From positions 434,001-498,000 of the forward strand of contig NZ_FWXV01000001.1 in NCBI RefSeq assembly GCF_900176515.1: a stretch of 64,000 bases of DNA, read 5' to 3'. Under the pieces are notes generated by a model. It worked only from the letters and a program-made list of their open reading frames with translations. It was not told the DNA's origin and searched no databases. The DNA comes from Kibdelosporangium aridum (GTDB lineage Bacteria > Actinomycetota > Actinomycetes > Mycobacteriales > Pseudonocardiaceae). Within the stretch, counting starts at the first letter, position 1, and each line of letters opens with the position of its first letter. Positions 3,544 through 47,391 of this stretch are shown here, piece by piece. A program made the translations under genes and the position numbers.

Positions 3544-3684
3544 GACCACCTCCTTGTGACCGTCGTCACTCGAAGGTAGGCCGCCCGGCGGGATGTTCCC
3601 ACGGTGCCGGGCACCACAATCAGCCGGGAGTTTGTGTGGCCCCAACAGATACCGCCGCGAGCGCCGGTGACCTACGGTCCGGCA

Positions 3685-18962: not shown

Positions 18963-19129
18963 TCCAACCCCACTAGTCCGACGCGAGATCATCTGTATAG
19001 AAGATGATATCTCCGACAACATAGTTGTCCGGCAGAACATTCCCGGACCAACCGGGCAGCGGACCGGAAGATCCAGGTCATCCCGTGATCACACTTCGCC
19101 ACGCTTGCGCAGCACGGAGTTTGTTGAGG

Positions 19130-19378: not shown

Positions 19379-19388
19379 CCCAAGCAGG

Positions 19389-21646: not shown

Positions 21647-21658
21647 CGTTCATCTCCT

Positions 21659-23538: not shown

Positions 23539-23585
23539 CAGGACTCCCTCGACCTTGACGTCCCCCTGACCTCCGTTGACGGTAG

Positions 23586-23625
23586 AGTCCTGAAATTCGA
23601 AAAACAAGTCCTTGTATTCAGGACT
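23586..23625. promoter_or_regulatory. Inverted-repeat operator between divergent aromatic operons (probable IclR site)
   Basis: AGTCCTGAA at 23586-23594 is repeated as its exact reverse complement TTCAGGACT at 23617-23625. A third half-like copy, AGTCCTTGT, lies between them near 23608, and another CAGGACT sits at 23539-23545 just upstream of the transporter start. Placement between the divergent starts at 23538 and 23664 suits control of both operons by the IclR regulator. The assignment to IclR is inference from context. Confidence 0.5.
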
Positions 23626-23663
23626 AGCCGGGGTTACCGTCGAGACACCGGAAGGAGGAGGCC

Positions 23664-26131: not shown

Positions 26132-26134
26132 GTC

Positions 26135-26950: not shown

Positions 26951-26961
26951 CCGGGACACTC

Positions 26962-27303
26962 GTGATAGCACCCGATGGCAGTGTGATCCGGGAGTTGAGC
27001 CGGTTCGACAACGACGCCGATCTCTATCGGTATCCGTTGGCGTTGTTGACAATGCCCAATGGGCGAACGGGAGTCGTGCATTGCCCCGAAGACAGCGGTC
27101 AGCTGGACATCGAGGACGCACTGCATGACGTGGGCACCGGTGACGTGCTGGCCGAATGGCCTGAGCTGGCGACGGGGGAGGCGAAATCCTCTCTGGTCGG
27201 GGATGGCTGGTTCTCAGGTCCGGCGACGATCGCGGTCGATCCGGTGAACTCGAGGTTCGCGCACACCGACGGTTCGGCGGTTACGGTCATTCAACTCGGG
27301 TGA
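26962..27303 (+). pseudogene. Truncated hypothetical protein fragment
   Basis: Frame in which a GTG at 26962 opens a 113-residue reading (VIAPDGSVIRELSR, YPLALLTMPNGRTGVVHCPE, ending FAHTDGSAVTVIQLG). It looks like the N-terminal part of a larger actinobacterial hypothetical protein with beta-propeller-like repeats (short DGS/DPVNSR turns) joined abruptly to its end. No ribosome site is visible. It could be a real short gene or the product of a deletion. It lies between the FAH gene and the NTPase gene. Confidence 0.4.
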
Positions 27304-27321: not shown

Positions 27322-29604
27322 GTGCGCCCGGAGGATGAACCCGATCCCGTAAACCTCGACGAATGGGCTGTGACGCGGGAAACGCTGTCCGCTTTGCTCT
27401 ACGAAGCGCTGCGGCAGCCGGAGATCGAGGCCGCGCTGGCCGAATCGGACATCACGGATCTCGAGGCCGGTCAGGCCGTGCTCGACGACCAGACGGTCCT
27501 TGCCCGGGTCCGGATGGAGCTGGATGAGGCGCGCCGCGGCCGGCATGAGACCAATACGTTCGGCGCCGGGAAGGACAGCACCGGTCGGTCCCGGCTGTCG
27601 TTGCGGGAGATCCGGCAGTTGCTGGTCGTGTTCCTGCTCGGGGTCGGATACCTGTCGTTGATGCGGGCGACGTGGGCGGACCTGGCATTCGTCGATCACG
27701 TTCTGGTGGTGATCGGGTTCGTCGCGACGATCGCCATCTCCGCGAGGATGGCCATCGCGCGGGTGCCTGAGATCCTGACCTACTTCGGTTTCGACGAACC
27801 GGAGGGCGTGGCCGACGACACCCTTGGGCTTGGCGAGCGGCGGAATGTCGTTCTGGTGACGTTGGTTGTGCCGGAGTTGATGCGGTACATCGAACGTCGC
27901 CGTACACGGGAGTACAGCACTACGTTGCGTTCCCGGCAGGTGACCAATCTCTATATCGACGACGAAGTCGACGTCGTCATCACCGAACCGGCGGAACGGC
28001 TTGTCCGTGCGCTCAAACGAGCGGGCTCCGGGGCGATTGCCTTGGCCGGGCAACGAGGAACCGGTAAGACCACCGCCATCCAAGCGATCCTGCAGGGGCG
28101 TTTCCAGTCACCGGACGGGCCTCCCTCGCTGACCGTCGTGGCGGCCGCCCCGGCCCTGTACGAAGCGCGTGATTTCGTGCTGCACTTGCATGCCTTGCTG
28201 TGCCACGCGGTTGTCGGCAAGATCGACGATCTGGTGCACAAGCGCCGCGAGGAATCGTGGGACAGCAAGGCAGAAGCGTGGGCCCGCACCGTGGCCATCC
28301 TGATCTCGATGGGCATGATCGCAGCCGCGGTGTTCGGCGGCAGTCAACTTTTAGGCATGACGGTCCCTGCGTTTCTGGAGGAACTCAGGCGGTCCGCAGT
28401 CGCGGTATGGAACGGATTCCCGGAAGCTGTCCCAGGCGTTTTCTTCGGCGGGTCGATACTGCGCGGGATCGTCCTCGTGGCCAGTGTGTTGGTCGCGGCG
28501 TACACCGTCAGGCTCGCGTTCTCCATACTGGTCGGCGTCTTGGAAGCGTTGCGCTGGGTGTGGCGCAGAATCAGCAGGCGCAGCCGGGACCCGCTGCGGG
28601 CCCTGAAAACGGAAGCGAAGGACCAGCTGCAGCGGATCCGCTTCCTGCAGACGTTCACCTCCGGCTGGTCCGGCAAGATCAGCACGCCGTTGAAGGGCGA
28701 GGCCGGCCGGACCTGGCAGGCCCAGCGTGCCGAGCAGCAGCTGACACACCCCGAAGTGGTCGAGAAGTTCCGGCAGTTCGCGCAGCGCAGTGCACAGGTT
28801 TTCATCCGGCACGGTGTGATCGACCGGATCGTGATCGCGATCGACGAGCTCGACAAGATCGGTGAGCCGGAGAAGGCGCACGAGTTCGTCAACGACATCA
28901 AAGGCGTTTTCGGTGTTCCCGGTTGTCTTTTCCTTGTCTCCGTGTCCGACGACGCCTTCACCACGTTCGAACAGCGTGGGATCGCCGTGCGGGACGCCTT
29001 CGACAGCGCGTTCGCCGAAATGATCCGGATGGAGCACTTCACGCTGGACGAAAGCAGGCATTGGATCGGCCGCCGCCTGCCCGGCGCGCCCGAGCAATTC
29101 ACCGTCCTGTGCCATTGCATGTCTGGTGGTCTGCCGCGTGACCTGCGGCGGTGCGTCGTGGAAATGCTCGACGTGTCCTTCGATCTCTACAACCCGCCGC
29201 TGTCCGCGGTCGTCGCCAGGATGGTCCGGCACGAGGTTGTGAAGAAAGCCCACGCGTTCGCCGGGACGGCCCGGGCGCAGGAAGTCGCCGACGGGCTTTC
29301 GGACCTGATGGCCGACCTGCTCACCGCACGGTCGGTGACCACGGCGGGGGAGATGATCGAACTCGCCGGCAGCCTGAGCAAGACCGACGAGAGCTATCCC
29401 CGGTTACGCGCGCAGAGCAGCACGTTTCTGCTGTTCTGCGCCACGGTCCTTGAGGTGTTCACCGACGAGCTGGACGAGGAGGCGTTGCGGGACACCAAGG
29501 TTGAGACGCTGGCAACGGTCCGTCAGCAGATGGCGGTCGAGCCACAGGTCGCCAGGCGTTTGCTGCTCACGTTCCGGAAAGAGCAAGGACTGGAGCTAGG
29601 CTGA
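27322..29604 (+). CDS. KAP-like membrane P-loop NTPase
   Basis: 760 residues from a GTG at 27322. Walker A GQRGTGKTT is at residues about 243-250 and Walker B IVIAIDEL at about 503-510. Two hydrophobic helices lie before Walker A (about 94-112 and 125-145). More lie between Walker A and B (about 323-342 and 382-407). Membrane helices inserted inside the NTPase domain are the hallmark of KAP NTPases. A ring or scaffold at the membrane is the usual interpretation; some KAP proteins occur in anti-phage islands. Nothing else defence-like adjoins it. Confidence 0.7.
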   Translation: MRPEDEPDPVNLDEWAVTRETLSALLYEALRQPEIEAALAESDITDLEAGQAVLDDQTVLARVRMELDEARRGRHETNTFGAGKDSTGRSRLSLREIRQLLVVFLLGVGYLSLMRATWADLAFVDHVLVVIGFVATIAISARMAIARVPEILTYFGFDEPEGVADDTLGLGERRNVVLVTLVVPELMRYIERRRTREYSTTLRSRQVTNLYIDDEVDVVITEPAERLVRALKRAGSGAIALAGQRGTGKTTAIQAILQGRFQSPDGPPSLTVVAAAPALYEARDFVLHLHALLCHAVVGKIDDLVHKRREESWDSKAEAWARTVAILISMGMIAAAVFGGSQLLGMTVPAFLEELRRSAVAVWNGFPEAVPGVFFGGSILRGIVLVASVLVAAYTVRLAFSILVGVLEALRWVWRRISRRSRDPLRALKTEAKDQLQRIRFLQTFTSGWSGKISTPLKGEAGRTWQAQRAEQQLTHPEVVEKFRQFAQRSAQVFIRHGVIDRIVIAIDELDKIGEPEKAHEFVNDIKGVFGVPGCLFLVSVSDDAFTTFEQRGIAVRDAFDSAFAEMIRMEHFTLDESRHWIGRRLPGAPEQFTVLCHCMSGGLPRDLRRCVVEMLDVSFDLYNPPLSAVVARMVRHEVVKKAHAFAGTARAQEVADGLSDLMADLLTARSVTTAGEMIELAGSLSKTDESYPRLRAQSSTFLLFCATVLEVFTDELDEEALRDTKVETLATVRQQMAVEPQVARRLLLTFRKEQGLELG

Positions 29605-29643
29605 AGGCGTTCTCCGCGGAACAGGCACGCGCTGGGGGAAACA

Positions 29644-32600
29644 GTGACGGCAGTCGAGTTCGGTCTGCTCGGCGCGATCGAGGCGCGCATCGACGGCCAG
29701 CAGATCGAGCTGGGTCATGCGCGGCAACGACATGTCCTTGCTGCGCTGCTCGTCGACGCCGACCGGTTGGTGCCCATCGCGGATCTTGCCGCCCGCATCT
29801 GGGGTGAGCAGACGCCACACAGCGGTCTCACGCCCCTGTACGGCTATCTGTCCCGGCTAAGACATGTGCTCGCACCCGCCGAGCGGAGTGTCCGGATTGT
29901 CCGGCAACCGGGCGGATACATGGCCGCGGTCAACCCAGCGAACGTTGACCTGCACCGTTTCCGGCAGCTGATGGCACGCGCACGAAGCACCGACGAGCCG
30001 ACGCGGGCGATGGGTTTGTTCCATGAGGCGTTGGCGTTGTGGCGCGGCGAACCGTTCGCGAGTTTCGACAATCCGTGGTTCAACAGCCAGCGCGTGGCGT
30101 TGTTGCGGGAACGGGAGTCCGCTGAGTTCGACTTGCGTGACCTGCGACTGCGTTGCGGCCAGCACGCCGAGGTCCTGACCGAGGTGAGTGGGGCCTTCGA
30201 GGCAGACCCGTTGAACGAGCGCGTGGCCGGTCAGTTGATGCTCGCGCTGTACCGGCAAGGCCAGTCGGCTGAGGCGTTGACGTGTTACGACCGGATGCGC
30301 TCCCGGCTGGCCGACGAGCTGGGCGTGCCGCCGAGTCCGCAGCTGCAGCGGCTCTACCAGCGGATTCTTGAGGCCGACCCGGAACTCGTGCCGACCGCGC
30401 TGCCTGCCTCCGGTGAGCGGGCGCCCGCTGTGCAAGCAAGGGCTTGGTCGGCGCCGGCGTTGCTGCCGCCGAGCGTTCCCGACTTCACCGGCCGGATGGC
30501 CGAGATCGCCTCGCTGTGCAAGCACTTGACCGACGACTGGGGCTCGGCATCGTCCGTCACCACGATCGTCGGCATGGGCGGTATCGGGAAGACCGCGCTG
30601 AGCGTGCACGTCGCCCAGAACACGGGCGCGTCCTACACCGACGGCCAGCTCTGGGCGAACCTTCGTGGCGCCAGCGACACCCCGGCGAAGTCCACCGATG
30701 TGCTCGCGCGATTCCTGCGTGCGCTGGGTGTTCCGGATCGGGCGATTCCCGCCGACCCGGATGAGCGCATGGAGACGTACCGCACGCTGGTGAACGGCCG
30801 GAAGATCCTGATCGTGCTGGACGACGCCGCCTCCGAGGAACAGGTCCGGCCGCTGCTGCCAGGGACTCCGACGTGCGCGGTGGTGATCACCAGCCGCGCC
30901 AGGCTGGTCGGGCTGGAAGGCGCGCACCGCATCGACCTCGACGTGTTCGCCACCGACGAGGCCATCGACCTGTTCACCCAGATCGTCGGCGAAGACCGGG
31001 TCACGCCTGAACTCTCGGCGGCGACCGAGATCGTCGAACTCTGCGGCGGACTGCCGCTGGCTGTCCGGATCGCGGGCGCACGCCTGGCAGCCAGACCCGC
31101 GTGGCGGTTGGCGCACCTCGCCGAGATGCTCAGCGACGAACGTCGCCGGCTGGACCAGCTTTCAGCGGGTGATCTTGCGGTCCGCGCCTCACTCGCGTTG
31201 AGCTACCGAGGCCTCGATGATTTGCCGCGCAGGCTCTTTCGTCTGCTCGGACTGTTCAGCGCGCCGGATTTCCCACCATGGCTGGCGTCCATGGTGCTGG
31301 AGTGCCCGGTGCACGAGGCCACTGAGTACGCCGAGGCGTTGGTCGACGCCCAGCTTCTCGCCACGTCCGGCACGGATGCCGCGGGGCAGTACCGATACCG
31401 GTTCCACGACCTGGTCAGGTTGTTCGCGGCGGAACGCGCCGCCGATGAGGAGACCGCGGAAAGCCGGACCCGTGCACTGGAACAGGGGATGGGTGGCTGG
31501 CTCGGACTTGCTGAGCGGATGTCGGCGTTGGTGCCCGGTCCGTGTTTCGCGCCGATCGCCAGCCCGGCGCCCCGCCCGCCGACGGACCATCTGCTCGAGG
31601 ACTTCCGGCCGGAGTGGGCGGCGAACTGGTTCGACGCGGAGCGGGGCGCGCTGTTGTCGACTGTCCGCCAGGCCTGTCGCCTCGGCATGACGGACTTCGC
31701 GTTCGACCTGGCGCAGCGGATGGAGAAGTACTTCGACGTCCGCGGGATGTACACCGACTGGATCGCGCTCAACACCCAGGTGATGGCGCTGTGCCAGGAA
31801 TCCGGCAACGCGTTGGGCGAAGCGGTCATGCTTCGCGGCCTCATCGACGTCACGACCTGGGCCGACGTCTCGCACGAAGACGCGATGGCACGTCAGTACG
31901 ACGAATCGCTCAGGCTCAGGGAGATGTTCACCGAACTTGGCCTGCCCCAAGGAGTCGCGGACGCGGCACTGATGGGTTCGTGGTCGTTGACCGCGAACGC
32001 CGCCTACACCGATGCGATCACCTTGGCCGACGAGGCACTGCGGCTCGCGACCGAGTCCGGGCATCTCGGGGGTCAGGCCAGGGCTGAGCTATCGCTTGCT
32101 CTGGCGTACTTCGAGAACCGGGACGTGCTGGTCGCGATCGGCCACGCCGACAACGCACTCGTCAAGGCCCGTGAACTCGGCAACACCCGATGCATCGCCA
32201 CCGCCTTGCAGTTCGCCGGGATCGGTTACCGCGTGATCGGCGACTTCGACGTCAGCAAACAGATGCTGGACGAGTCGCTCGAGCTCTCCCGGTCCTCTCG
32301 CGACTACTACACCGAGGTGCTCACGTTGCTGGCGTTGGCACGGTTGTACTTCAACACCGGTGACCCCGAGGCACGTCCGACCGCCGAGGCGGCGATTTCG
32401 CTCAGTCGCGACTACAACATGAGCCACCACCTCGGCGAGGCGCTGGAGATCCTCGGCTCGATCGAAATCGCCGACGGCCGCCCGGCCAAGGCCATTCCGT
32501 ACCTCGAGGAGTCCGTCGCGCTCTGGCGCACCCGCGGCTGGCATTCCTTCCACGCGACCGCGCTGACCAGCCTCGGCAAGGCGTACACGGACGTCGACCC

Positions 32601-32700
32601 GCGGGCCGCGCGGGCGGCGTTCCGTGCCGCGCATGATCTTTTCGTCCAGGTCGGGAACATCGACCAGGCGACCGAAGTCGCCCGGCTCGCGGAGTTATAG
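29644..32700 (+). CDS. SARP-type regulator with BTAD, NB-ARC and TPR domains
   Basis: 1018 residues, GTG start. Residues 1-90: OmpR-like winged helix (FGLLGAIEARIDGQQIELG, WGEQTPHSG). About 95-240: bacterial transcriptional activation domain (RLRCGQHAEVLTEVSGAF, ADELGVPPSPQLQRLYQRIL). P-loop GMGGIGKT at about 310-317 opens an NB-ARC domain (LIVLDDAASEEQVRPLLPG, LPLAVRIAGARLA). Residues about 690-1018 are tetratricopeptide-like helices. Such AfsR/DnrI relatives activate specialised-metabolism genes. Its stop overlaps the end of the convergent transporter pseudogene. Confidence 0.9.
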   Translation: MTAVEFGLLGAIEARIDGQQIELGHARQRHVLAALLVDADRLVPIADLAARIWGEQTPHSGLTPLYGYLSRLRHVLAPAERSVRIVRQPGGYMAAVNPANVDLHRFRQLMARARSTDEPTRAMGLFHEALALWRGEPFASFDNPWFNSQRVALLRERESAEFDLRDLRLRCGQHAEVLTEVSGAFEADPLNERVAGQLMLALYRQGQSAEALTCYDRMRSRLADELGVPPSPQLQRLYQRILEADPELVPTALPASGERAPAVQARAWSAPALLPPSVPDFTGRMAEIASLCKHLTDDWGSASSVTTIVGMGGIGKTALSVHVAQNTGASYTDGQLWANLRGASDTPAKSTDVLARFLRALGVPDRAIPADPDERMETYRTLVNGRKILIVLDDAASEEQVRPLLPGTPTCAVVITSRARLVGLEGAHRIDLDVFATDEAIDLFTQIVGEDRVTPELSAATEIVELCGGLPLAVRIAGARLAARPAWRLAHLAEMLSDERRRLDQLSAGDLAVRASLALSYRGLDDLPRRLFRLLGLFSAPDFPPWLASMVLECPVHEATEYAEALVDAQLLATSGTDAAGQYRYRFHDLVRLFAAERAADEETAESRTRALEQGMGGWLGLAERMSALVPGPCFAPIASPAPRPPTDHLLEDFRPEWAANWFDAERGALLSTVRQACRLGMTDFAFDLAQRMEKYFDVRGMYTDWIALNTQVMALCQESGNALGEAVMLRGLIDVTTWADVSHEDAMARQYDESLRLREMFTELGLPQGVADAALMGSWSLTANAAYTDAITLADEALRLATESGHLGGQARAELSLALAYFENRDVLVAIGHADNALVKARELGNTRCIATALQFAGIGYRVIGDFDVSKQMLDESLELSRSSRDYYTEVLTLLALARLYFNTGDPEARPTAEAAISLSRDYNMSHHLGEALEILGSIEIADGRPAKAIPYLEESVALWRTRGWHSFHATALTSLGKAYTDVDPRAARAAFRAAHDLFVQVGNIDQATEVARLAEL

Positions 32701-33937
32701 CCAGCCAGGAGCGACGAAGATGATCCACGTCGCCGTCGGCGCGATCGCGCACATGCTGAACCCCCACACCATCAGGCGCCGGAAGACCCGGTCACGCTCG
32801 GCCTCCGGTGAGTTGGCCACGACAAGAGACGAGCGCTCCGATCAGGCAGATGATGATGGCCGCGAGCAAAGGCGCACCGATCGTGGTGACCGCGTTGCCC
32901 AGCCAGTCGATCGTCCCGACGCGTTCCATCAACGACACGTACGTGACGATGCCGCAGATCAGCAGCACAGTCGGCCAGGCGACCTGACCGACAGCGGCCT
33001 TGGCTGAACTCGGGCACACAATGGACAGCAGCGCCGCGACGGTCAGTGCGGTGAAACCAACGTCGAGGCCGAACGCCAGCGCACCGACCGCGAGGCCGGC
33101 CAGCCCGATCAGCGTGCAGATTCCCTCACGGGTCAACGGCTTCGGCCGCTCGACTGTCTCATCGCGGCTGCCCGGTTCGATGGAGTCCCCGCAACCGGTG
33201 CCGGGCTTCCGTTCGGCAGCCTCCTCGGTTGCCGTCGACACGAGGCCCTCGGTCCGGGTGACGTCTTCGACGTGCGCGGAAACCGGTGTGGCGACCGCGG
33301 CTCGTGCAGGGGTCAAGCTGATCGCGGTTGCCTTGCGGCGCATCAGTTCCCGGCCGCCGAAGATGAAGAAGACGATGACCGACAGCGTCAGGTTGAACAG
33401 GAACGACGACACGAACAGCAGGCTCGGGTTGCTCGGCAGGTTGTTGCGCCCCACGACTCCGTTGACGATGCTGCCGAAGATGCTCATCGGGGAGAAGCCA
33501 CCTGCGCTGGCCCCGTTGATGATCAGCAGTCCCATCAGGACCGGGTTGATCCGGTAACGCGCGGCGAAGCCCATGCCGATCGGCGCGATGATGGCCACCG
33601 CCGCGGGAACCACGGCCCCGACTGCGGTGAGTACCGCGGTGACAAGGAACATCACCCACGGGATGAGGGCGATTCGCCCGCCGACAGCCCGAACTGCGAC
33701 TTGGACCAGCCAGTCGACCGTGCCGTTGCCTTTGGCGATGGCGATGGCGAACAGCAACGTGACGCCGACCAGAATGATGAAGAGGTCACCGGGGAAGCCG
33801 GCGACGATGTCGTCGGTGCTCTCCCCGACGAACGCGGTGCCCACCACGAACGCGGCCACGAAGGCCAACGCTCCCATGTGGACGGGTAAGACCGTGGCTG
33901 TCAGGAACACCAACGCGAGTGTCACGACCGTGATCAT
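32695..33937 (-). pseudogene. SLC13/DASS-type transporter with internal out-of-frame deletion
   Basis: From the ATG at 33937 (MITVVTLALVFLTATVLP) about 380 residues of a multi-helix SLC13-type anion transporter follow, up to GAPLLAAIIICLIGALVS. The reading then leaves the family and stops at 32794. In the next frame the true C-terminus continues from LVVANSPEAERDRVFRR, then LMVWGFSMCAIAPTATW, to a stop at 32695. The missing part would hold a pair of helices and the second SNT-type substrate/sodium motif, about 50 residues. Frame and length are both broken, so the protein is very likely non-functional. Upstream of the glyoxylate genes, divergent. Confidence 0.75.
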
Positions 33938-34083
33938 TTCCGTAAAACGAGTATTACGCGCGTCACATATGCGCGTCAACCGCCTCGACGAGACCAGTCC
34001 TGAGGTCTACGCTTTCGACTAGCGACATTGTATTTCCACATTATGGATTTGTTATCAGAGTTCACTGAGCGTGCGGAGGACTC

Positions 34084-35250
34084 ATGACCTACGCGTCCGG
34101 TCGTCACTTCCTACAGATCCCAGGGCCCACCAACGTTCCCGACCCGGTGCTGCGGGCGATGTCGGCGCCGACGATCGACCACCGGGGGCCCGAATTCGCC
34201 GAACTGGGCCGGGAACTGTTGCGGGACATCAAGCCGGTGTTCGGCACGACAGGCCCAGTGATCATGTATCCCGCGACCGGAACCGGTGCGTGGGAAGCGG
34301 CTCTGGTCAACACGCTGAGCCCGGGCGACAAGGTGCTGTGCTTCGAGACCGGCCACTTCGCCACCCTCTGGCAGGAGATGGCCCATGGCTTCGGTCTCGA
34401 GGTCGACTTCGTGCTCGGCGACTGGCGGCACGGGGCGAGCCCGGAGATCGTCGCGGAGAAACTCGCCGCCGACACCGCGCATGAGATCAAGGCAGTGTGC
34501 GTGGTGCACAACGAAACCTCCACGGGTGTCACCAGCCGGGTCGGCGACATCCGGGCGGCGATCGACGACGCCGATCACCCTGCGCTGCTGTTGGTCGACA
34601 CGATCTCGTCGCTGGGGTCCATCGACTACCGGCACGACGAGTGGAAGGTCGACGTCACGGTCGCCGGATCGCAGAAGGGACTCATGCTGCCGCCAGGCAT
34701 GAGTTTCAACGCGGTCAGCGAGAAAGCGTTGGCAGCGAGCAAAACCGCCCGTCTGCCGCGGACGTTCTGGGACTGGCAGCCGATGCTCGCCGCCAACGAG
34801 CGCGGCTTGTTCCCGTACACACCCAACACAAACCTGATGTACGGGCTCAAGGAAGCCTTGCGCCTGCTCTACGAGGAAGGCCTGCCGAACGTCTTCGCCC
34901 GCCATGCCCGGCATGCGGCGGCCACCAGGGCAGCGGTACGCGGCTGGGGCTTGGAGGTGTTGTGCCTCGACGAGCGTGAGCACTCCGGGTCCTTGACCGC
35001 GGTGCTTGTGCCAGAGGGTGTCGACGCGGACAAAGTGCGGGCCGTCATCCTCGACCGGTTTGACATGTCGTTGGGTGCGGGTCTGGGCAAACTGGCTGGG
35101 AAGGTGTTCCGGATCGGCCATCTCGGCGCCTTCAACGATCTCACGCTCGCCGGCACGCTCGCCGGTGTCCACATGGGACTGGTGTTGTCCGGGGTCCGGA
35201 TCGACGCGCGGGGGATGGACGCCGCGCTGGAGGTGCTGCAGTCCGACTGA
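34084..35250 (+). CDS. Serine-glyoxylate aminotransferase-type PLP enzyme
   Basis: 388 residues, class V aminotransferase. Substrate-binding start FLQIPGPTNVPDPVLRAM, HNETSTGVTSRV, LLVDTISSLGSIDYR (PLP Asp), and VTVAGSQKGLMLPPGM with the Schiff-base Lys. Enzymes of this group transfer an amino group between serine and glyoxylate (or alanine and glyoxylate), giving hydroxypyruvate and glycine. Position next to a glycolate-oxidase-like gene and glycerate kinase supports this. It is 38 bp upstream of the chimeric oxidase gene. Confidence 0.85.
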   Translation: MTYASGRHFLQIPGPTNVPDPVLRAMSAPTIDHRGPEFAELGRELLRDIKPVFGTTGPVIMYPATGTGAWEAALVNTLSPGDKVLCFETGHFATLWQEMAHGFGLEVDFVLGDWRHGASPEIVAEKLAADTAHEIKAVCVVHNETSTGVTSRVGDIRAAIDDADHPALLLVDTISSLGSIDYRHDEWKVDVTVAGSQKGLMLPPGMSFNAVSEKALAASKTARLPRTFWDWQPMLAANERGLFPYTPNTNLMYGLKEALRLLYEEGLPNVFARHARHAAATRAAVRGWGLEVLCLDEREHSGSLTAVLVPEGVDADKVRAVILDRFDMSLGAGLGKLAGKVFRIGHLGAFNDLTLAGTLAGVHMGLVLSGVRIDARGMDAALEVLQSD

Positions 35251-35288
35251 CCGAACCTGTTCGCAACGACGCGAGAGGAATGACCACA

Positions 35289-37679
35289 ATGACCGCCGAG
35301 CTCAGCCACGGTACGCGGCTGGACGAGGTACTGCGTTCACGAGTGACAGGTGAGGTGGCGTTCGACGACTACACCCGCCACCTGTTCTCGAGGGACGCGA
35401 GCATGTACTCGATCATGCCGCTCGGGGTTGTGTTTCCACGAAACGAGAACGACACCGCGGAGGTGGTCCGCACCGCCGCCGAGTTCGGTGTCCCCGTCGT
35501 CCCGCGCGGCGCGGGAACCAGTCTCGCCGGTCAGACCGTCGGTCCCGGCCTGGTACTCGACTTCTCCCGGCACATGAACAAGACCTTCGACCTCGCGAAG
35601 TTCGTTGTCGGCGCGGAAGGCACGCTGGTTGTCGTCACGCGAGCAGTGGTCGATCTCGTTCCCAGGCCTAAGAAGACGGTCTACGCGATCGGGCACTTCG
35701 AGTCGACGCACGCCGCGATCTCGGCGACTGAGGACGCGCTGTCGTGCGATCCACATCAGGTCGAGCTGATGGACAAGACGATCCTCGACCTGTCCCGGCA
35801 GAAGATCGAGTACGCCGACTTGGGCAACCACCTCGTGGGGGATCCCGCCGCGCTGCTGTTCGTCTCGTTCGCTGGGGACAACGAGACCGAGCTCGTCGCG
35901 AAGCTCGACCGGGTGGCTGCGTTATGGAAGCAGAATGGCCACGGCTACCACACGGTGAAGGCCGTCACGACGGCCGAACAGGCCGCGTTGCTGAAGGTCC
36001 GCAAGTCGAGCCTTGGGTTGCTGATGGCAGCGGGGGAGGGGACCCGGCGTCCGCTGGCGTTCATCGAGGACACCGCGGTGGAGCCTGTTCACCTGGCCGA
36101 ATACACCCAGCGGTTCAAGCAGATCCTGGACGCCAACGGGCTGGAGGCGGGGTTCTACGGGCACTGCTCGGTTGGCTGCCTGCACATCCGGCCCTTCATC
36201 GACTTGACTGATCCATCCCAAGTGGACACGATGCGCCGGGTCGCACGGCAGATCAAGGACCTGGTGGCCGAATACGGCGGCGTCAACTCCAGCGAGCACG
36301 GCGATGGCCTGGCGCGCAGCGAGTTCAACCGGGAGATCTTCGGTGACTCGCTGTACGAGGCCATGCGTGAGGTCAAGCGCTTGTTCGATCCCATGGGCGT
36401 GCTGAACCCCGGCAAGATCGTCGACGCGCCCCCGATGACCGAAAACCTGCGCGACCGGGATGCCCTGCCGCCAGCACCCGTACTGCGGACAGTGCTGCAG
36501 TTCGAAGTCGTCGGCGGTGGGATGCGCGACGCGGCCGACCGGTGCATGAACATCGGCCTGTGCCGCGAGACCACCGCAGGCGTCATGTGCCCGTCGTATC
36601 AGGTGACGTTGCAGGAGGAGCACTCCACCAGGGGCCGGGCCAACGCGCTGGTGAAAGCACTGTCCGAACCGGACCCGCACAAAGCGCTCGCCGACGACCG
36701 GCTGCACGAGATCCTCGACCTGTGCCTGATGTGCAAGGCATGCAAGAGCGAGTGCCCGATGAGCGTGGACATGGCCGCACTCAAGGCGGAGACCCTGCAC
36801 CACCACCATGAGGTGCACGGTATTCCGTTGCGGTCCCGTATCTTCGGCACGATCCGCTTTCTCAACCGGATGGGCTCGGCCACGGCACCCCTGTCGAACA
36901 TCCCCGGGCGAGTGCGTTTCCTGCGCAGGATCATGCAACGAGCCGTCGGCATCACCGCCGAGCGTCCGCTGCCGAAGTTCGTCCGTGACAACCTCGTACG
37001 GTGGAACGGGAAACGTGCCACGGCGAAAGGTGCGGCTGGCACAGTCAACTGGCTGGCGGACTCGTTCACGACCTACACCGAACCGCAGATCGGCAAGGCC
37101 GCGATCGAGTTGCTTGAGGCGGCAGGCTGGGCCGTGCGACTGGCCAGCGGTGGTTGTTGCGGACGCTCAAGCCTGTCGAAAGGCCTGCTGGACGACGCCA
37201 AGAAGAAGGCAGCCGGTCTGGTGGCGGATGTCGAGGCCGCACGGCCGGTGCTGGAAGCCCTCGGGTCGACCGTCGTCCACGTTGGACCGTCGGGAGCCGG
37301 GCAGACGGTGAAGGCGGCCAATCAGTTGATCGTCGCAGGCACGATCGAATTGGTCGCCGAAGCCTTGGTCTTCCTTGCGGCACATCACGTGAACGCACAG
37401 GCTGCGGTCGAGGTACTCGCTGGCGGGCTGGCGGGCAGCCGCATCCTTGAGCGCAAGGCGGCAGGGATGATCGCGGGTGACTACTCGCCAGGCTTCCGGG
37501 TCGACCTGCACCACAAGGACTTGGGAATCGCACTGTCGGCGGCTCGGGAAGCCGGCGTGGCGATCCCGCTCGGCGCTGTCGTGGCCCAATTGATGGGTGC
37601 GCTGCGTGCCCGTGGCCACGGCGCGAAAGACCACTCGGCGCTGCGGTTGCTGGTCGACGAACTATCCGGGGTGAGCTGA
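35289..37679 (+). CDS. Chimera: FAD/FeS oxidase (glycolate/D-lactate dehydrogenase type) joined to C-terminal part of tartronate-semialdehyde reductase
   Basis: 796 residues, continuous frame. Residues 1 to about 645 match FAD-binding and [4Fe-4S] oxidases: GVPVVPRGAGTSLAGQTV, the CLMCKACKSECP cluster motif, CMNIGLCRETTAGVMCPSY, and a final GGCCGRSSLSKGLLDDAKKKA. From about residue 649 the sequence becomes EAARPVLEALGS, GPSGAGQTVKAANQLIVAG, and GMIAGDYSPGFRVDLHHKDL, the C-terminal domain of GarR/GlxR-type reductases including their catalytic Lys. The oxidase lacks the last roughly 200 residues of its family and the reductase lacks its NAD-binding Rossmann domain. A deletion between two former neighbours explains this. 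Start could also be the ATG at 35280. Confidence 0.8.
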   Translation: MTAELSHGTRLDEVLRSRVTGEVAFDDYTRHLFSRDASMYSIMPLGVVFPRNENDTAEVVRTAAEFGVPVVPRGAGTSLAGQTVGPGLVLDFSRHMNKTFDLAKFVVGAEGTLVVVTRAVVDLVPRPKKTVYAIGHFESTHAAISATEDALSCDPHQVELMDKTILDLSRQKIEYADLGNHLVGDPAALLFVSFAGDNETELVAKLDRVAALWKQNGHGYHTVKAVTTAEQAALLKVRKSSLGLLMAAGEGTRRPLAFIEDTAVEPVHLAEYTQRFKQILDANGLEAGFYGHCSVGCLHIRPFIDLTDPSQVDTMRRVARQIKDLVAEYGGVNSSEHGDGLARSEFNREIFGDSLYEAMREVKRLFDPMGVLNPGKIVDAPPMTENLRDRDALPPAPVLRTVLQFEVVGGGMRDAADRCMNIGLCRETTAGVMCPSYQVTLQEEHSTRGRANALVKALSEPDPHKALADDRLHEILDLCLMCKACKSECPMSVDMAALKAETLHHHHEVHGIPLRSRIFGTIRFLNRMGSATAPLSNIPGRVRFLRRIMQRAVGITAERPLPKFVRDNLVRWNGKRATAKGAAGTVNWLADSFTTYTEPQIGKAAIELLEAAGWAVRLASGGCCGRSSLSKGLLDDAKKKAAGLVADVEAARPVLEALGSTVVHVGPSGAGQTVKAANQLIVAGTIELVAEALVFLAAHHVNAQAAVEVLAGGLAGSRILERKAAGMIAGDYSPGFRVDLHHKDLGIALSAAREAGVAIPLGAVVAQLMGALRARGHGAKDHSALRLLVDELSGVS

Positions 37680-38770
37680 TGAAAGTTGTCCTGGCACCTG
37701 ACAAGTTCAAGGGTTCGCTGTCGGCTCCGCTTGTCGCGGCCCACCTCGCGACCGGCATCCACGCCGGTTCACCGGACACAGAGGTGGTCAGCCTGCCCGT
37801 CGCGGACGGCGGCGACGGGTTCCTGGACGCCGCCCTGGCGGCTGGCTATCAGGAAATCACTGTCCCGGCAGAAGGTCCGACAGGCAAGCCGATCCTCGCG
37901 CGATACGGCGAACGCGACCATGTAGCCGTCATAGAACTGGCTGACACGGCCGGTCTACAAGCGTTGCCTGACGGCACGCCCGCGCCCATGACAGCGTCGA
38001 GTTACGGCACCGGGCTCGTGATAAGGGCAGCACTGGATGCGGGGTGCCGCAGCATTCTGATCGGACTGGGCGGAAGTGCTTGCACGGACGGCGGCGCAGG
38101 TCTGTTGGAAGCGCTGGGCGCCACGCTGCACGGGGCCGGGCGGGGTGGTGGCGGTCTGCTCAGCCTGACGGGTGTTGACCTGTCACAGTTGCATCCTGCG
38201 TTGCCGACGACCGAGATCACCGTCGCCTCCGACGTCGACAACCCCTTGCTTGGGGACACGGGCGCGGCCGCTGTGTACGGTCCGCAAAAGGGCGCGTCAC
38301 CAGAGGAAGTCGCCCTGCTCGACACCGCGTTGGCTGTCTGGGCCAGGCATCTCGGGACGGACCTCGCGAACGCGCCAGGTGCGGGCGCGGCCGGAGGCGT
38401 CGGTTATGGCCTGATGGCCGCGCTGGGAGCGACCATGCGGCCGGGTATCGAGATCGTGCTCGACATGACCGACTTCGACAAAGCCCTTGCCGACGCCCAA
38501 CTCGTGGTCACCGGCGAGGGATCGTTGGACGAACAGACCCTGCACGGCAAAGCCGTTGCCGGAGTCGCCGCGCGAGCGCGGGCAGCCGAGGTGCCGGTCT
38601 TCGCCGTCGCAGGGCGCTCGACGCTCGATTCCGGCCAGCTCCGGACCATCGGGATCACGTCAGCCTTCACCCTTGCCGACATCGAATCCGACCTGGACAT
38701 GTGCATGACCAGACCGGGACCGATCCTGGAACACATCGGCAGGCAGATCGCTCAACGAGTTCGCCGGTAG
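37679..38770 (+). CDS. glxK: Glycerate kinase
   Basis: 363 residues. Family signatures: VVLAPDKFKGSLSA at the N-terminus, VADGGDGFLDA, GLGGSACTDGGAGLLEALGA, and VTGEGSLDEQTLHGKAVAGVAARAR. The enzyme phosphorylates D-glycerate, here from glyoxylate via tartronate semialdehyde or from serine via hydroxypyruvate. Start ATG overlaps the preceding TGA (TGATG). Intact, in contrast to the two damaged genes of this locus. Its end overlaps the convergent ARPP-like gene by about 19 bp. Confidence 0.9.
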   Translation: MKVVLAPDKFKGSLSAPLVAAHLATGIHAGSPDTEVVSLPVADGGDGFLDAALAAGYQEITVPAEGPTGKPILARYGERDHVAVIELADTAGLQALPDGTPAPMTASSYGTGLVIRAALDAGCRSILIGLGGSACTDGGAGLLEALGATLHGAGRGGGGLLSLTGVDLSQLHPALPTTEITVASDVDNPLLGDTGAAAVYGPQKGASPEEVALLDTALAVWARHLGTDLANAPGAGAAGGVGYGLMAALGATMRPGIEIVLDMTDFDKALADAQLVVTGEGSLDEQTLHGKAVAGVAARARAAEVPVFAVAGRSTLDSGQLRTIGITSAFTLADIESDLDMCMTRPGPILEHIGRQIAQRVRR

Positions 38771-39882
38771 CGGGCCAGGACGTCCTCGCGCAGCAATGCC
38801 CCGAACCCCGCGGACTCCAGGCGCATGCCGAGTTGTGCCTCCGTCACGCCGAGTGCCGACGCGGTCGTCGGCAGGTGCCAGTCGTGCACAGCGAGGTGGG
38901 TGAGCAGGTGGCCACGGCGGACCTGGTTCTCCGACAGCCGGAAGGTCTTCAGGTACGCCGTGCGGCCGCGTTGATCGGTGATCACCTCACCGATGTGGTT
39001 TTCCTGCTTGAGCTGGAAACCAGGCAGGAACCGGGTCAACGTGTAGTCGCCCATCCGGTACACGCGGCGCATGTCGTACTTGGCGTCGAGCAGGCCTGCG
39101 GCCATGGCCGAAGAATGGAACTGCGGCCAGGCGAGTTGCTGCCGGGTGGCTTCGGCTCGCAAGTCGGCCAGTGTCTGAACATGGCTTTCGTTCAGGCGCA
39201 CCTGGAACTGCGGCACGGGCGAGGCGAACATCGCGTACTGGTAGACCAGTTCGCCGTAGAGATCCTGGATCAGGGTCGCGTGCAGCGCCCGGTAGTCGTC
39301 CGGATGCGGTACGACGAACGCAGCCGCCAGCGCGTCGGCCACGTAGACCAGCACCCCGCACTGCCCGGGGTGGATTTCGAAGATGCGCAACGCGTCTCCG
39401 AGGCCTTCCACCTCGGCCCCGGAGTACGCCTCCTCGACACGGGGCGAAAGGCCGTTGCGGATCGCACGCTGTGACCACTCGTCCCACACGATCTGCGGCC
39501 CGCCGAAGTGCAACGCCAGATATCCCTCGACAGCGAGATGCATCGGCAGGAAGCGCAGCCGCTTCTTGTCCGCGCGCCGCGCCATCCTGCGGTGGAAGTG
39601 CAGGCGCAGGCACGCGGACGGTGAGCCCTCGGTGATTTCTGTGCCGTACGCGGCAGCGGGAGTGCCGTCGGTTGACCACGTCGCAACGAACCCATGCGGG
39701 ATGTAGGACATGTATGCGGTGCGGCGATGGACTTTCACGATGCCGATGGAGTCACCGTAAACGTGCGCGTGCAGCCGCAAGGTCTCGATCGGCTCGTCGC
39801 GCACGAGCGGCACCAGCCGGACACCGCCCCACACCTGGGAAGGCCGGACGGACAGGCCGGTCAGGTCGAGTGTGGCCATCAT
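38752..39882 (-). CDS. ARPP-like protein coupled to a TROVE-type vWA protein
   Basis: 376 residues, no signal or membrane segment. Conserved-looking stretches are VWGGVRLVPLVRDEPIE, FHRRMARRADKKRLRFLPMH, EIHPGQCGVLVYVADALAAAF and EVITDQRGRTAYLKTFRLSE. I read it as an ARPP-family protein (ARG- and phosphatase-associated domain), a group found beside TROVE and vWA genes, but the name is a recollection and not a search. ATG at 39882 overlaps the stop of the vWA gene (ATGATG), so the pair is translationally coupled. The C-terminal helices may be DNA- or protein-binding. Confidence 0.55.
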   Translation of the reverse strand: MMATLDLTGLSVRPSQVWGGVRLVPLVRDEPIETLRLHAHVYGDSIGIVKVHRRTAYMSYIPHGFVATWSTDGTPAAAYGTEITEGSPSACLRLHFHRRMARRADKKRLRFLPMHLAVEGYLALHFGGPQIVWDEWSQRAIRNGLSPRVEEAYSGAEVEGLGDALRIFEIHPGQCGVLVYVADALAAAFVVPHPDDYRALHATLIQDLYGELVYQYAMFASPVPQFQVRLNESHVQTLADLRAEATRQQLAWPQFHSSAMAAGLLDAKYDMRRVYRMGDYTLTRFLPGFQLKQENHIGEVITDQRGRTAYLKTFRLSENQVRRGHLLTHLAVHDWHLPTTASALGVTEAQLGMRLESAGFGALLREDVLARYRRTR

Positions 39883-41267
39883 CCCTCCAGGAATCGGGCG
39901 ATCCGGTCGTCGAAGTGGGCTTTCAGCTCGGCAAGGCCGGTGTGGCCTTCGGTGAACCGGGCGAACTCCACCAAGGCGGGCACGTCCTCGGCGTCCCGCA
40001 CACCGACCGTGGGCACGTGCCCGATTTTCTTCACGTCGAAGGTGTCCGCGTCGTACTCGGGGTTGAGGTGCACGACAATGACCTCGTGCTCGGGATCCAG
40101 CCGGGTCCGCCAGACCCGCAGGACCTCGGAAGCCATTCCGCCCGGCGCGTTGTCCCAGCCATCGGACACGATGAGCAGCCTGTCCGGGTTGTGCTCCAAC
40201 GCGTCGAGCACCCGCTCACCCAGCGGTGTCACACCGCGTGGGTACACCAGCAGTGCGTCGGTCCGCCCGGACGTCCACAGTGGAACATAGCTGTCCGCCA
40301 TCGCCTCGCACAGGTAGTGGCAGGCCAGCGCGACCGCCAAGGGCCGCCTGCGCTTCTGCCTGGATCCGAACGCCGAAAAGCTGTCGTCCAGCACCGCGGC
40401 GACCCGGCCCCACCGATGACCGGCAGCAACCTTCGCAGCGGCAGCGCGCAGGGCACGTGTCAGCTCGGCGCGTCGCTCAACGCGCTCGGTCACCGGCAAG
40501 GACAGAACATAGGACGACAGTCGTGTCAACGGCATCGATCCCAGGTCCACGCCGAGGTCGATCTTGCTTCGACGGGCGGATTCCTGCAGCCGCAAGCGTT
40601 CCACCCGGGTCATCCGGGGCTCGATGCGTTCGAGGAAGGTGGCCCGGTCAATGTTGTGTTTGGCAGCAAAGCCTTCCGCGACCGTGTACGGCAGGTCGTA
40701 GATGGATGCCTGCTCGTAGTGAGCGCGCCGCCACGATTCCAGGATCGGCGTCGCATAACGGGTTTTACCGGCGAACAGGAATGGACCGAGCTCGTCGCCG
40801 TCCGGCTTGACATGCGCGTGCCGCACCGCCTGCTTGAGGGGTGTGCGGTACTTCACGGCGTCGAACGCCGGATCGGGCCGGTGCGACAACCAGTCCCGGA
40901 TGATCGCCCTGGTCCGTCGATTGTTCACACGCGACTGTCGCAGCCTGCGGAACAGCTCGTACACCCGTTGCGGCGCGACAAGACGCAGGCGACGGCCGAT
41001 GAGCTGCCCCTCAAGGCGCTTCTGGTCGTCGTCGGCATCGGCGGCGGTGACCAGCAGGCGATGCGCGATCAACGTGGCGTTGTGGTCGTTGATGTCCAGC
41101 GCCAATGTCGCGGCGTACAGGTCGCGGTAGTTGCCGATCATGTACTCATGCAGGAAGTCCAGCGAGAACCGCTGGGCACTGGCCGCACTGTGGAACTCAC
41201 GCTGACCGCTCGACGTGATCGCCGCGTTGACGAACATGAGCATGTCCTCAGCGGTGACGCGGTCCAT
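39879..41267 (-). CDS. TROVE/Ro60-like protein with a von Willebrand factor A domain
   Basis: 462 residues from an ATG with GGAGG upstream. The first 280 residues are helical (LALDINDHNATLIAHRLL, YTVAEGFAAKHNI). From about 285 comes a vWA domain whose MIDAS motif DxSxS is complete at residues 294-298 (DDSFS), with a Thr in SGRTDALLVYP and SDGWDN as the second Asp. Ro60 has the same order: helical ring for RNA binding, then vWA. Bacterial Ro60 orthologues work in RNA quality control and repair. The relationship here is inferred from layout and motifs. Confidence 0.6.
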   Translation of the reverse strand: MDRVTAEDMLMFVNAAITSSGQREFHSAASAQRFSLDFLHEYMIGNYRDLYAATLALDINDHNATLIAHRLLVTAADADDDQKRLEGQLIGRRLRLVAPQRVYELFRRLRQSRVNNRRTRAIIRDWLSHRPDPAFDAVKYRTPLKQAVRHAHVKPDGDELGPFLFAGKTRYATPILESWRRAHYEQASIYDLPYTVAEGFAAKHNIDRATFLERIEPRMTRVERLRLQESARRSKIDLGVDLGSMPLTRLSSYVLSLPVTERVERRAELTRALRAAAAKVAAGHRWGRVAAVLDDSFSAFGSRQKRRRPLAVALACHYLCEAMADSYVPLWTSGRTDALLVYPRGVTPLGERVLDALEHNPDRLLIVSDGWDNAPGGMASEVLRVWRTRLDPEHEVIVVHLNPEYDADTFDVKKIGHVPTVGVRDAEDVPALVEFARFTEGHTGLAELKAHFDDRIARFLEG

Positions 41268-41414
41268 CCATTCCTCCCCCAAACCAGGCGCCGGCCGGGG
41301 AATGGGAGCACGAGCAGCTAAACAACGCTTCAGAGGCGGGTTCCGGAAGTCGCGCCGAAGTCCCACGGCCGGCCCGCGAACGGTAGCAGCAGCCGTGATC
41401 GCACGCGAGCCGAA

Positions 41415-41684
41415 TTACGCTGGTAGTTGCGAGTGTTCGTCGGCATCCGTGCACAGCGAGGCGATGTAGTCCAGTGAGATGTCCAGAGCGTCTGCGATCG
41501 CCGCGACGGTGAAGAACGAGGGGCTCGGAATGCGGCCTGCCTCGATCTTGCGCAACGTCTCATGCGACAGGCCTGTCTCGCCGGCCAGCTGCACCAGGCT
41601 CATCGAGCCACGCGCCGCGCGCAACACTGCGGCAAGTTGCTTGCCGCGTTCCCGTTCCTGGGGTGTCAGGGGAGCCCGCACCAT
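41415..41684 (-). CDS. Small HTH (XRE-type) regulator
   Basis: 89 residues, nearly all one Cro/C1-type helix-turn-helix: LAAVLRAARGSMSLVQLAGETGLSHETLRKIEAG then SFFTVAAIADALDISLDYIA. The phrase ETLRKIEAG is the recognition helix. No effector domain is present. It lies 148 bp upstream, in transcript order, of the vWA/ARPP pair on the same strand, so it could control that pair, but no operator was identified. Confidence 0.85.
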   Translation of the reverse strand: MVRAPLTPQERERGKQLAAVLRAARGSMSLVQLAGETGLSHETLRKIEAGRIPSPSFFTVAAIADALDISLDYIASLCTDADEHSQLPA

Positions 41685-41715
41685 GGATCAACGGTAACCC
41701 AGATCATGAAGCGAG

Positions 41716-41874
41716 TCACCTCAAGACTGTGATGTGCTCAAGAACATCCTCGAAGACGTCGATGTCACCGAAGTTCATGGTGATGTCGCCGATCGACACC
41801 AAAGGCTCAGCGGACGCCGGACTGCCGATGAGGATGGTGGTGCAAGCCGCGGCGACAACCAGCGTTCTACGCAT
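41716..41874 (-). CDS. 52-residue secreted peptide precursor
   Basis: A 52-codon gene starting at the ATG 41874, with AGGGAG six bases upstream. Residues 1-22 are a signal peptide (RRTLVVAAACTTILIG, cleavage after SPASA). The mature 30-residue acidic peptide begins EPLVSIGDITMNFGDI and has no Cys. Its length and composition are unlike a chaplin or rodlin. It could be a signalling peptide, an anionic antimicrobial or a shell component. There is no recognised homologue. Confidence 0.55.
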   Translation of the reverse strand: MRRTLVVAAACTTILIGSPASAEPLVSIGDITMNFGDIDVFEDVLEHITVLR

Positions 41875-42402
41875 ATGGACTCCCTGCGAGAAAAACGGAT
41901 AGTCCCTCCAGCAAACACGGCTGGCGCCGAGCTGATCAATCGGCCGGGCAGGTGCGTTGTCACTCCACTCTGGACACGCTGGGCCAGCAAATCTGCGCGG
42001 TAATGGGCTGATCGGTGGCTCAACTGGGTGAGCGCCGAGCTGCACTGTCAAATGTGGACGGTCGGTACGGCGGATAGTACTACGGACGGTGTTGATAAAC
42101 TAGTGACGAAAATGCAGGAAGACGGGCTGGGAAGGGGAAGTGTCGCGAAGTGGAAGTGGCTGCAGCGTGAATCGCAAACGAGTCTTGTCCGGTGTGCAGG
42201 TTGACTCCTGGTGCGGCAGCGCAGGGGCTTTCCGTGTAGCGGCGCGGGGTGACTCGTCTGGTCTGGCGGCTTGCTGGTGAAGTAACGCGGCGTGGCGGTT
42301 CCGGCGTCCACTGCAGACCCTCAACGCCATGGCGTAGACATAGGAGAAGGCCCGCGCCAAAGGGCAACGCGGGCCTTCCAGGGGGCGGGAGAAACGGAGA
42401 AA
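41875..42402. other. 528-bp intergenic stretch, leader of the peptide gene plus terminator of the protease gene
   Basis: Contains the leader and presumed promoter of the secreted-peptide gene (right part of 41875-41960), an AT-richer stretch around 42070-42120 that may be another promoter, and the hairpin at 42347-42377. Short frames inside (for example 30 codons from 42113) have no ribosome site or homology, so none is called. Confidence 0.5.
42347..42377 (-). terminator. Hairpin terminator of the metalloprotease-like gene
   Basis: AAGGCCCGCG (42347-42356) pairs perfectly with CGCGGGCCTT (42368-42377) across an 11-base loop. It begins 26 bases beyond the stop at 42403. There is no T run, as is common in actinobacteria, so termination would rest on the GC-rich stem. 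Confidence 0.55.
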
Positions 42403-43184: not shown

Positions 43185-44378
43185 ATGGCGGAGGCGTATC
43201 CCTTTGGTGCGGCGGACAGTATCGACCCACATCCGCGATATGCGGCGTTGCGGCAGGAAAGCGGGCTCGGCCTGATCAAGACCCGGTGGGGCGGCACGGC
43301 TTGGCTGGCCACCCGGTATCAGGACGTCAAACTGGTACTGGGTGATCCGCGGTTCTCCCGTGAGCTGGCCGCTGGCCGCGACGAGGTCGCCCGGCCGAGG
43401 CCGTCGATCGACTCACCCGACCAGATCATCAGCATGGACCCGCCCAATCACACCCGCCTGCGTCGCCTGGTGGCCAAGGCTTTCACCGCGCATCGCGTCG
43501 AACAGCTCCGGCCGCGCGTGACCGAGATGGTCGACGACCTGATCGATCGCATGGATGTCCCGTCGCGGACTGCCGATCTGGCCACAGCGTTGGCGTGGCC
43601 GCTGCCGATGATGGTGATCAGCGAAATGCTTGGGGTTCCCGAGGCTGACCGCGACAACTTCCGCCGGTGGACCGAGCTGGTGCTCGCACTCGGCGGCGAG
43701 ACCACACTTGAGGAAATGGTCGATGCGCGGGCGAGGCTCAACGCGTATCTCGCCGAACTGATCGCGCAGCGCCGCGTGAGTCCCACCGCTGATCTGCTGT
43801 CCGACCTGGTCGCCGCCCGCGACGAAGGCGATCGGCTGTCTGAGGAGGAACTGGTCCGGCTCGGCGTCACACTGCTGATCGCAGGCCACGAGACCACCGC
43901 CAACCAGATCGGCAACTTCGTGTTCGTGTTGCTGGACAACGACCGCGCCGGCTGGCGGCAGTTGATGGCTGATCCCGCGTCAGTGCCGACCGCCGTCGAG
44001 GAACTGCTGCGGTACGTCCCGATGGCCGCGACCGCCGACTTCGCCCGGGTGGCCAGGGAGGATGTCGAGGTCGGCGGACAGCTTGTCCGTGCGGGGGAGG
44101 CGGTGCTCGTGCAAGTCCACGCCGCCAACCGGGACAGCACGGTTTTCCGCCATCCCGACCACCTTGACCTGGCCCGTACACACAATCCGCACATCGCGTT
44201 CGGGTTCGGCGTGCACTACTGCCTCGGAGTCTCGTTGGCGCGGCTGGAATTGCGGATCGTGCTTTCCGCGTTGCTTGAGCGGTTTCCTGACCTGCGGCTT
44301 GGCGTGCCCGCCGAGGAAGTGCCGTGGCGGACCGATCGCCTCGTGCGCGGGGTGCGGTCGTTGCCGGTCGCTTGGTGA
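43185..44378 (+). CDS. Cytochrome P450
   Basis: 397 residues from an ATG preceded by GGGAGGAG. All signatures are present: LLIAGHETTANQIGNF (I-helix oxygen-binding), the ELLR of the K-helix ExxR, and FGFGVHYCLGVSLARLELRIV with heme-ligand Cys346. It belongs to the soluble class I bacterial type, so it needs a ferredoxin and reductase from elsewhere. Substrate unknown. Its stop is one base from the stop of the convergent SARP regulator, but the two do not share a promoter. Confidence 0.9.
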   Translation: MAEAYPFGAADSIDPHPRYAALRQESGLGLIKTRWGGTAWLATRYQDVKLVLGDPRFSRELAAGRDEVARPRPSIDSPDQIISMDPPNHTRLRRLVAKAFTAHRVEQLRPRVTEMVDDLIDRMDVPSRTADLATALAWPLPMMVISEMLGVPEADRDNFRRWTELVLALGGETTLEEMVDARARLNAYLAELIAQRRVSPTADLLSDLVAARDEGDRLSEEELVRLGVTLLIAGHETTANQIGNFVFVLLDNDRAGWRQLMADPASVPTAVEELLRYVPMAATADFARVAREDVEVGGQLVRAGEAVLVQVHAANRDSTVFRHPDHLDLARTHNPHIAFGFGVHYCLGVSLARLELRIVLSALLERFPDLRLGVPAEEVPWRTDRLVRGVRSLPVAW

Positions 44379-47097: not shown

Positions 47098-47391
47098 GTT
47101 CTCCCCCGGAATCGCGTCCGTACTCGTCCACAATGGCCGTCGGATCCGTCGGACGTGACCAGGACGTTACCGGCAGGTGAGCAGCGGGGGCCATCATCCT
47201 TTCGTTGTAAAACGCAGTCGCTCGATCGGGCAGTGGGATGACTCTGATGTGACCCGGTTCGCCGGGGGTACCGGGGTCACATCAGCCCGCACCGATCGTG
47301 CTCGGCGATATCGGCACGATTTCATGAACTTTCATCGCTTTCGCGGTGCGGGCTGGCAGGATCGACTGGTCCACATCTCGAGGGGAATGCG

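Follow-up and report, generated by a model that had tools for sequence, protein, structure and literature searches.

Does a long open frame that carries two known domains mark a new fusion enzyme, or can it be what is left of a broken gene pair? The question is raised by positions 35280-37679 of the window (the whole stretch of DNA that was analysed, 64,000 nucleotides in length), a single frame of 799 amino acids without a stop, in which an FAD/FeS 2-hydroxyacid oxidase runs into the second half of a GarR-type tartronate-semialdehyde reductase. Automatic annotation would call such a frame one oxidoreductase.

Layout of the chimeric frame

The Pfam matches within the frame came in the order FAD_binding_4, FAD-oxidase_C, Fer4_8 and NAD_binding_11, the last at residues 672-788. 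FAD-oxidase_C and the 4Fe-4S domain were present, and the FAD_binding_4 domain was incomplete, matching positions 1-66 of a profile of 139, while the match extends over positions 1-138 in the oxidase of genome G283 (locus L149) and over 3-136 in a paralogue on contig C26 of the window genome. Pfam did not find the C-terminal Cys-rich domain (CCG) in the chimera, and it is present in the L149 oxidase and the C26 paralogue; nor did it find the NAD_binding_2 Rossmann domain, which is present in the L149 GarR and in a paralogue on contig C25. The NCBIfam model for tartronate-semialdehyde reductase, TIGR01505, matched residues 648-797 to profile positions 139-288 of 291, scoring 165 bits, below the cut-off of 340.75, a threshold that the intact G283 GarR also just fails to reach (327.5). 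The NAD_binding_11 part retains the motif VKAANQ, the Lys of which we take to be the catalytic residue of GarR.

A preliminary description of this DNA had described an oxidase that ends early and continues in frame, near 37225-37240, into a reductase that has lost its NAD-binding half. Pfam, TIGR01505 and the alignment to L149 agree on this layout. Against the separate genes of L149, oxidase identity extends to ...DDAKKKAAGLV and reductase identity begins at DVEAARPVLEALGS, which maps the join to 37220-37230. The absence of NAD_binding_2 and the start of the TIGR01505 match at profile position 139 bear out the loss of the NAD-binding half. The second ATG of the frame, at 35289, aligns with the start of the L149 oxidase protein and is preceded by a plausible ribosome site (judged by eye), in agreement with the extent of 35289-37679 given earlier. 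The early end of the oxidase stood as well; what the preliminary description overlooked is that the oxidase is also broken by a second in-frame deletion (Table 1, scar b) and that the transporter next to it carries an out-of-frame one (scar a).

Table 1. Features of the block and of the chimeric frame, with positions in the window
Feature	Positions	Strand	Basis or remark
Block between two conserved convergent genes	32691..38764	.	Flank alignment to G004, G001 and G007
MatC-type dicarboxylate transporter with an out-of-frame loss of 155 bp near 32826 (scar a)	32792..33979	-	Alignment to relatives
Class-V aminotransferase, apparently intact	34084..35250	+	L149 homologue BhcA-like, below cut-off
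Chimeric open frame, 799 codons	35280..37679	+	Start probably at 35289; damaged FAD/FeS 2-hydroxyacid oxidase continuing in frame into GarR C-terminal half
Oxidase N-terminus, to mid FAD_binding_4, ends ...LDFSRHMNK	35289..35585	+	Pfam and L149 alignment
In-frame deletion within FAD domain (scar b)	35586..35595	+	Alignment to relatives
Rest of oxidase: FAD-oxidase_C, Fer4_8, GGCCGRSS motif; last ~180 codons (CCG domain in L149) missing	35596..37220	+	
In-frame oxidase-reductase join (scar c)	37220..37230	+	Alignment to relatives
GarR C-terminal half (NAD_binding_11); NAD_binding_2 half missing	37227..37679	+	Pfam, NCBIfam, L149 alignment
Glycerate kinase, apparently intact	37679..38770	+	Start overlaps reductase stop (TGATG)

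With regard to the identity of the oxidase, the intact L149 protein matches chains of glycolate oxidase and D-lactate dehydrogenase among solved structures. The best NCBIfam model for the window oxidase was the YdiJ D-2-hydroxyglutarate dehydrogenase, with a score that falls below the cut-off, as does that of the intact L149 protein.

The order oxidase, reductase, glycerate kinase, claimed earlier for related loci, was found in genomes G003 (L040) and G002 (L041), where separate genes for the aminotransferase, oxidase, GarR and glycerate kinase follow one another in this sequence. The G283 cluster holds a divergent transporter followed by genes for the aminotransferase, oxidase, a fumarylacetoacetate-hydrolase (FAH)-family protein, hydroxypyruvate isomerase, GarR, glyoxylate carboligase and glycerate kinase; the FAH-family gene lies at L149 11751-12488, between the oxidase and hydroxypyruvate isomerase genes. 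In a further locus, L146 of genome G111, the orthologous oxidase matches in frame 2 and then in frame 3 at about 4432-4446, and looks frameshifted or mis-sequenced. Within the block of the window the oxidase, the reductase and the transporter are damaged, and the aminotransferase and glycerate kinase look whole.

Deletion scars and constraint

The three lesions of the block were mapped by alignment to relatives. Compared with several relatives, scars a, b and c are deletions that each fall at the same point. At scar b, 435 bp are missing relative to L047-L049, 426 bp relative to L149 and 420 bp relative to G002 and G003, a loss of 140-145 codons that make up the second half of the oxidase FAD domain. 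A similar TCGACCT stretch stands at both break points in several relatives, a pair that fits, as would be expected, a deletion between short repeats. Scar c takes ~180 oxidase codons, including the CCG domain, and ~142 GarR codons, including the NAD domain. The missing DNA comes to ~934 bp against G003, 1,378 bp against G002 (these being sums from BLAST ends) and 2,528 bp against G283, and the size of the lost piece would therefore depend on the ancestral gene order (~0.93, 1.38 or 2.5 kb on the G003, G002 or G283 arrangement, respectively). Scar a lacks 155 bp, out of frame, relative to L047, L048, L049, L050 and L149, and a detached C-terminal remnant of the transporter lies at ~32701-32826. 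Also inside the transporter, window 33117-33335 is 57 bp longer than L047, and most relatives do not align there. Among 390 family genomes we found no intact copy close enough to give exact scar sizes; for the glycerate kinase, the best relative is ~70% identical.

The preliminary description had attributed the chimera to the loss of DNA between the oxidase and reductase genes. That loss is supported by the alignments, and the account proves incomplete, in that the oxidase and the transporter are separately broken and paralogues with complete domains exist elsewhere in the genome.

We then compared the constraint on the kept parts of the frame with that on intact genes. Omega between the window and its relatives was 0.09-0.15 for oxidase residues 113-400, 0.12-0.17 for the FeS part and 0.10-0.20 for the reductase part, and the highest values in pairs of intact genes were 0.139, 0.171 and 0.183, respectively; for the intact aminotransferase of the window, omega was 0.08-0.13. 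At near-invariant columns the window oxidase was changed at 3 of 218, one of these being a Lys to Glu change adjoining an FeS cysteine motif. Among 89 other oxidases, no such column was changed in 51, one in 22, two in 8, three in 5, four in 2 and six in 1, such that 8 of the 89 had three or more. This count leaves out residues 84-112, where three columns bordering scar b looked misaligned; with these residues included, 6 of 230 columns were changed in the window, the highest of 90 sequences. Hence there was no clear relaxation of constraint, since omega was not clearly raised in the window frame, and this result implies that the deletions are recent, or that the protein is kept, or that the assembly is wrong. 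We infer that the window deletions are recent.

The chromosomal site and the origin of the block

The block is flanked by a regulator gene with BTAD, NB-ARC and TPR domains (29644-32700) and by a convergent ARPP-2 gene (38752-39882), the last codons of which differ from those of congener G001 at the block border. The DNA on both sides (window 29519-32690 and 38765-42160) matched contig C20 of congener G004 at ~92% identity, and the two flanks lie 34 bp apart there; in G001 they lie ~150 bp apart. Protein comparison with eight L149 proteins revealed no block gene at the G004 or G001 site, and one weak oxidase match in G001 (E 5e-4, 26% identity) was located in the flank. At the site in congener G007, relics of three block genes were found within ~400 bp (L139 ~3261-3662), in block order and orientation, with E values of 2e-15 to 3e-19. 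They correspond to transporter residues 367-400 (85% identical to L149), GarR residues 15-75 (57%) and glycerate kinase residues 314-357 (59%). In a control of 200 single-base shuffles of the G007 site, scored by count alone, 10 gave any match at E<=0.01, a limit far above the E values of the relics. The window lacks the half of GarR from which the relic derives, and also part of the transporter piece, which spans the position of scar a. A fourth G007 match, to the FAH-family protein (42%), was discounted as a relic, as it sits in a flank common with window 26603-26921.

A simple recent insertion in the window strain alone, as might be read from the empty G004 and G001 sites, was rejected in view of the G007 relics. 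Judging from these relics, the block would have been present at the site before G007 split from the window lineage, unless there were two separate entries. Because G004 (flank identity to the window mostly 91-94%) is closer than the relic-bearing G007 (82-90%), its empty site is best read as a loss, if the relic is shared. Four other stretches of the window (19046-26965, 27326-28971, 29025-29518 and 47285-49296) are also absent from the otherwise ~92% identical G004 contig, and gene content in this region thus varies between close relatives. Outside the block, window 43188-44378 is 73% identical to DNA just upstream of a glyoxylate cluster in G005 (L038 2456-3637), and has many other matches in the genus.

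Where the block came from was approached with a tree of the oxidase, the only block gene so analyzed, built from the kept columns of 89 relatives (>58% identity, of 109 distinct). Six Amycolatopsis-type sequences formed a group with the window oxidase (support 0.84), and this group lay inside a clade of ten (support 1.0) that includes Pseudonocardia but not the G002 and G003 oxidases. These results suggest that the block was probably gained horizontally from outside the genus, from an Amycolatopsis- or Pseudonocardia-like donor. However, the next branch (0.86) is Actinocrispum L072, which is probably of the same genus, and its position weakens the case for gain from outside. A mobile-element origin was not supported: no repeat pair was found at the block ends, there was no Rfam match in 32000-39500, and no mobility genes were found by Pfam among the block genes and the two flanking genes scanned.

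It is also conceivable, although unlikely, that there was no horizontal gain, the genus having long carried the block at this site and most of its members having lost it by descent, a history that is compatible with decay in the window. The G007 relic at the site, the loss that G004 must have undergone if the relic is shared, the Actinocrispum branch and the presence of a similar cluster elsewhere in G002 and G003 all favor such a history. Nevertheless, the site itself holds ~4.2 kb in G002 and G003 without a match to any of the eight L149 proteins, and a support of 1.0 places the window oxidase with another genus.

Competing accounts and comparison with known systems

The preliminary description left the question of a second garR copy, and one was found. 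Seven NAD_binding_11 matches occur in the window genome, that of the window included, and one GarR with both NAD domains lies on contig C25, between a xylose-isomerase-type barrel protein and a thiamine-pyrophosphate enzyme that are Hyi-like and Gcl-like, respectively, by likeness to L149 proteins. A transporter, an aminotransferase and a 933-amino acid oxidase are encoded on contig C26; this oxidase has complete FAD, FeS and CCG domains and is 67% identical to that of the window. Further glycerate kinase matches were found on C25 and C19. The functions of the block thus appear to be duplicated elsewhere in the genome by paralogues with complete domains, and the chimera does not imply that the pathway has been lost.

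The lost domains are those that bind FAD and NAD. With the CCG domain, all of the NAD domain and half of the FAD domain gone, the product of the chimera would not be expected to work as an oxidase or as a reductase. Altogether, we favor, with a probability of about 0.84, the interpretation that the chimera is a fusion pseudogene made by deletion, within a redundant and probably acquired glyoxylate-to-glycerate block that is eroding also in relatives. According to this model, a block of divergent transporter, aminotransferase, FAD/FeS oxidase, GarR and glycerate kinase entered before the window genome, G004 and G007 parted, and would then have been eroded by simple deletions lineage by lineage, such that it is gone in G004, reduced to a ~400 bp relic in G007 and marked by three deletions in the window. 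One of the latter would have shortened the oxidase in frame, one joined it to the second half of GarR and one frameshifted the transporter. The frame may have stayed open because neither of the in-gene deletions broke it, for which the chance is 1 in 9, and because too little time has passed for stops to appear.

An error of assembly or consensus, in which the genes are intact and three pieces were dropped by the assembler, is improbable. It would account for three lesions in ~5 kb without stops and without a clear rise in omega, and the window genome is a draft of 12.27 Mb in 40 contigs. However, the relic of the same block in G007 is a precedent for erosion, and no gene-internal deletion was noticed elsewhere when the window was compared with G004 (17.8 kb aligned), or contig C26 with G001 (13.9 kb) and G006 (12.5 kb). 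This comparison covered part of the gaps, apart from those inside alignments and an 824 bp gap seen against G006 only (L042 15349-15818); a stretch of 396 bp that is missing near window 27122 relative to G004 falls between listed open frames. Neither the flanks nor the examined part of C26 lend support to a general deletion fault of the assembly.

We also searched for the same fusion elsewhere. In 146 loci, which overlap in part, include the window's own genome and represent fewer genomes than loci, and with frames cut by a locus end excluded, the FeS part was present in 133 open frames and the reductase part in 18; the two occurred together in the window's own frame (L142) only. The motif FGPD[PT]S, located in the part of the FAD domain that scar b removes, was present in 122 of 133 frames carrying the oxidase core (the window's own fragment excluded) and GCCG[ML]A in 131 of 133, and the window frame has neither. 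An unbroken match across the join was found in the window alone among eight genomes of the genus. When the join was used as a query against the family, matches were obtained in 279 of 297 genomes and, among the matches listed, only the window fully covers both sides. Six rows, taken from a set with further partly spanning ones (e.g. G142, G262 and G222), appeared to cross the join (G275, G111, G314, G279, G285 and G134). On inspection none of the six was a fusion: each held one gene, for a reductase with an NAD motif of its own or for an oxidase that continues into GCEPSC. A conserved fusion enzyme, which the preliminary description had named as the finding that would speak against damage, was therefore rejected, as no second case occurred among the rows checked. 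Among the papers listed in a literature search, seen as titles and abstract openings, no title concerned such a fusion or this cluster.

These results bear on the possibility that selection keeps the fusion as an electron-transfer or scaffold protein composed of an FeS core and a helical GarR domain. A frame that is open across 799 codons after two in-frame deletions, low omega and a plausible ribosome site before 35289 (by eye) are what such a protein would present, but it would have to work with its CCG and NAD domains gone and its FAD domain halved. Furthermore, there is no second case among the rows checked, the adjoining transporter is frameshifted, complete-domain paralogues exist and the congener G007 keeps scraps only, all of which make a selected fusion very improbable. 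That a newly made protein is expressed, with the oxidase FeS core and the helical dimerisation half of GarR serving electron transfer or the binding of pathway enzymes, we regard as less probable still.

A long intact frame with two known domains thus need not represent a new fusion enzyme, and two frame-keeping deletions can mask a broken gene pair. Most likely, the chimera reflects ordinary gene decay, caught in stages, with the window, G007 (scraps) and G004 (nothing) forming a small series in the loss of one block within the genus.

Finally, the block was compared with known systems. The genes that it has in common with the glyoxylate-to-glycerate cluster of G283 share order and orientation; unlike that cluster, the window has no FAH-family, Hyi or Gcl genes and carries three deletion scars, and the G002 and G003 clusters likewise have no Gcl between GarR and the kinase. 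The oxidase resembles the single-chain FAD/FeS 2-hydroxyacid oxidases of actinobacteria, with their GlcD plus GlcF-like layout, in its FAD-oxidase_C and Fer4_8 domains and GGCCGRSS motif, and is ~84-86% identical to Amycolatopsis-type oxidases across the kept parts, but it differs from this type in the loss of 140-145 codons of the FAD domain and ~180 C-terminal codons. Similarly, the window shares with GarR/GlxR (TIGR01505) the NAD_binding_11 half, which is 85% identical to the G283 protein, but not the NAD_binding_2 half.
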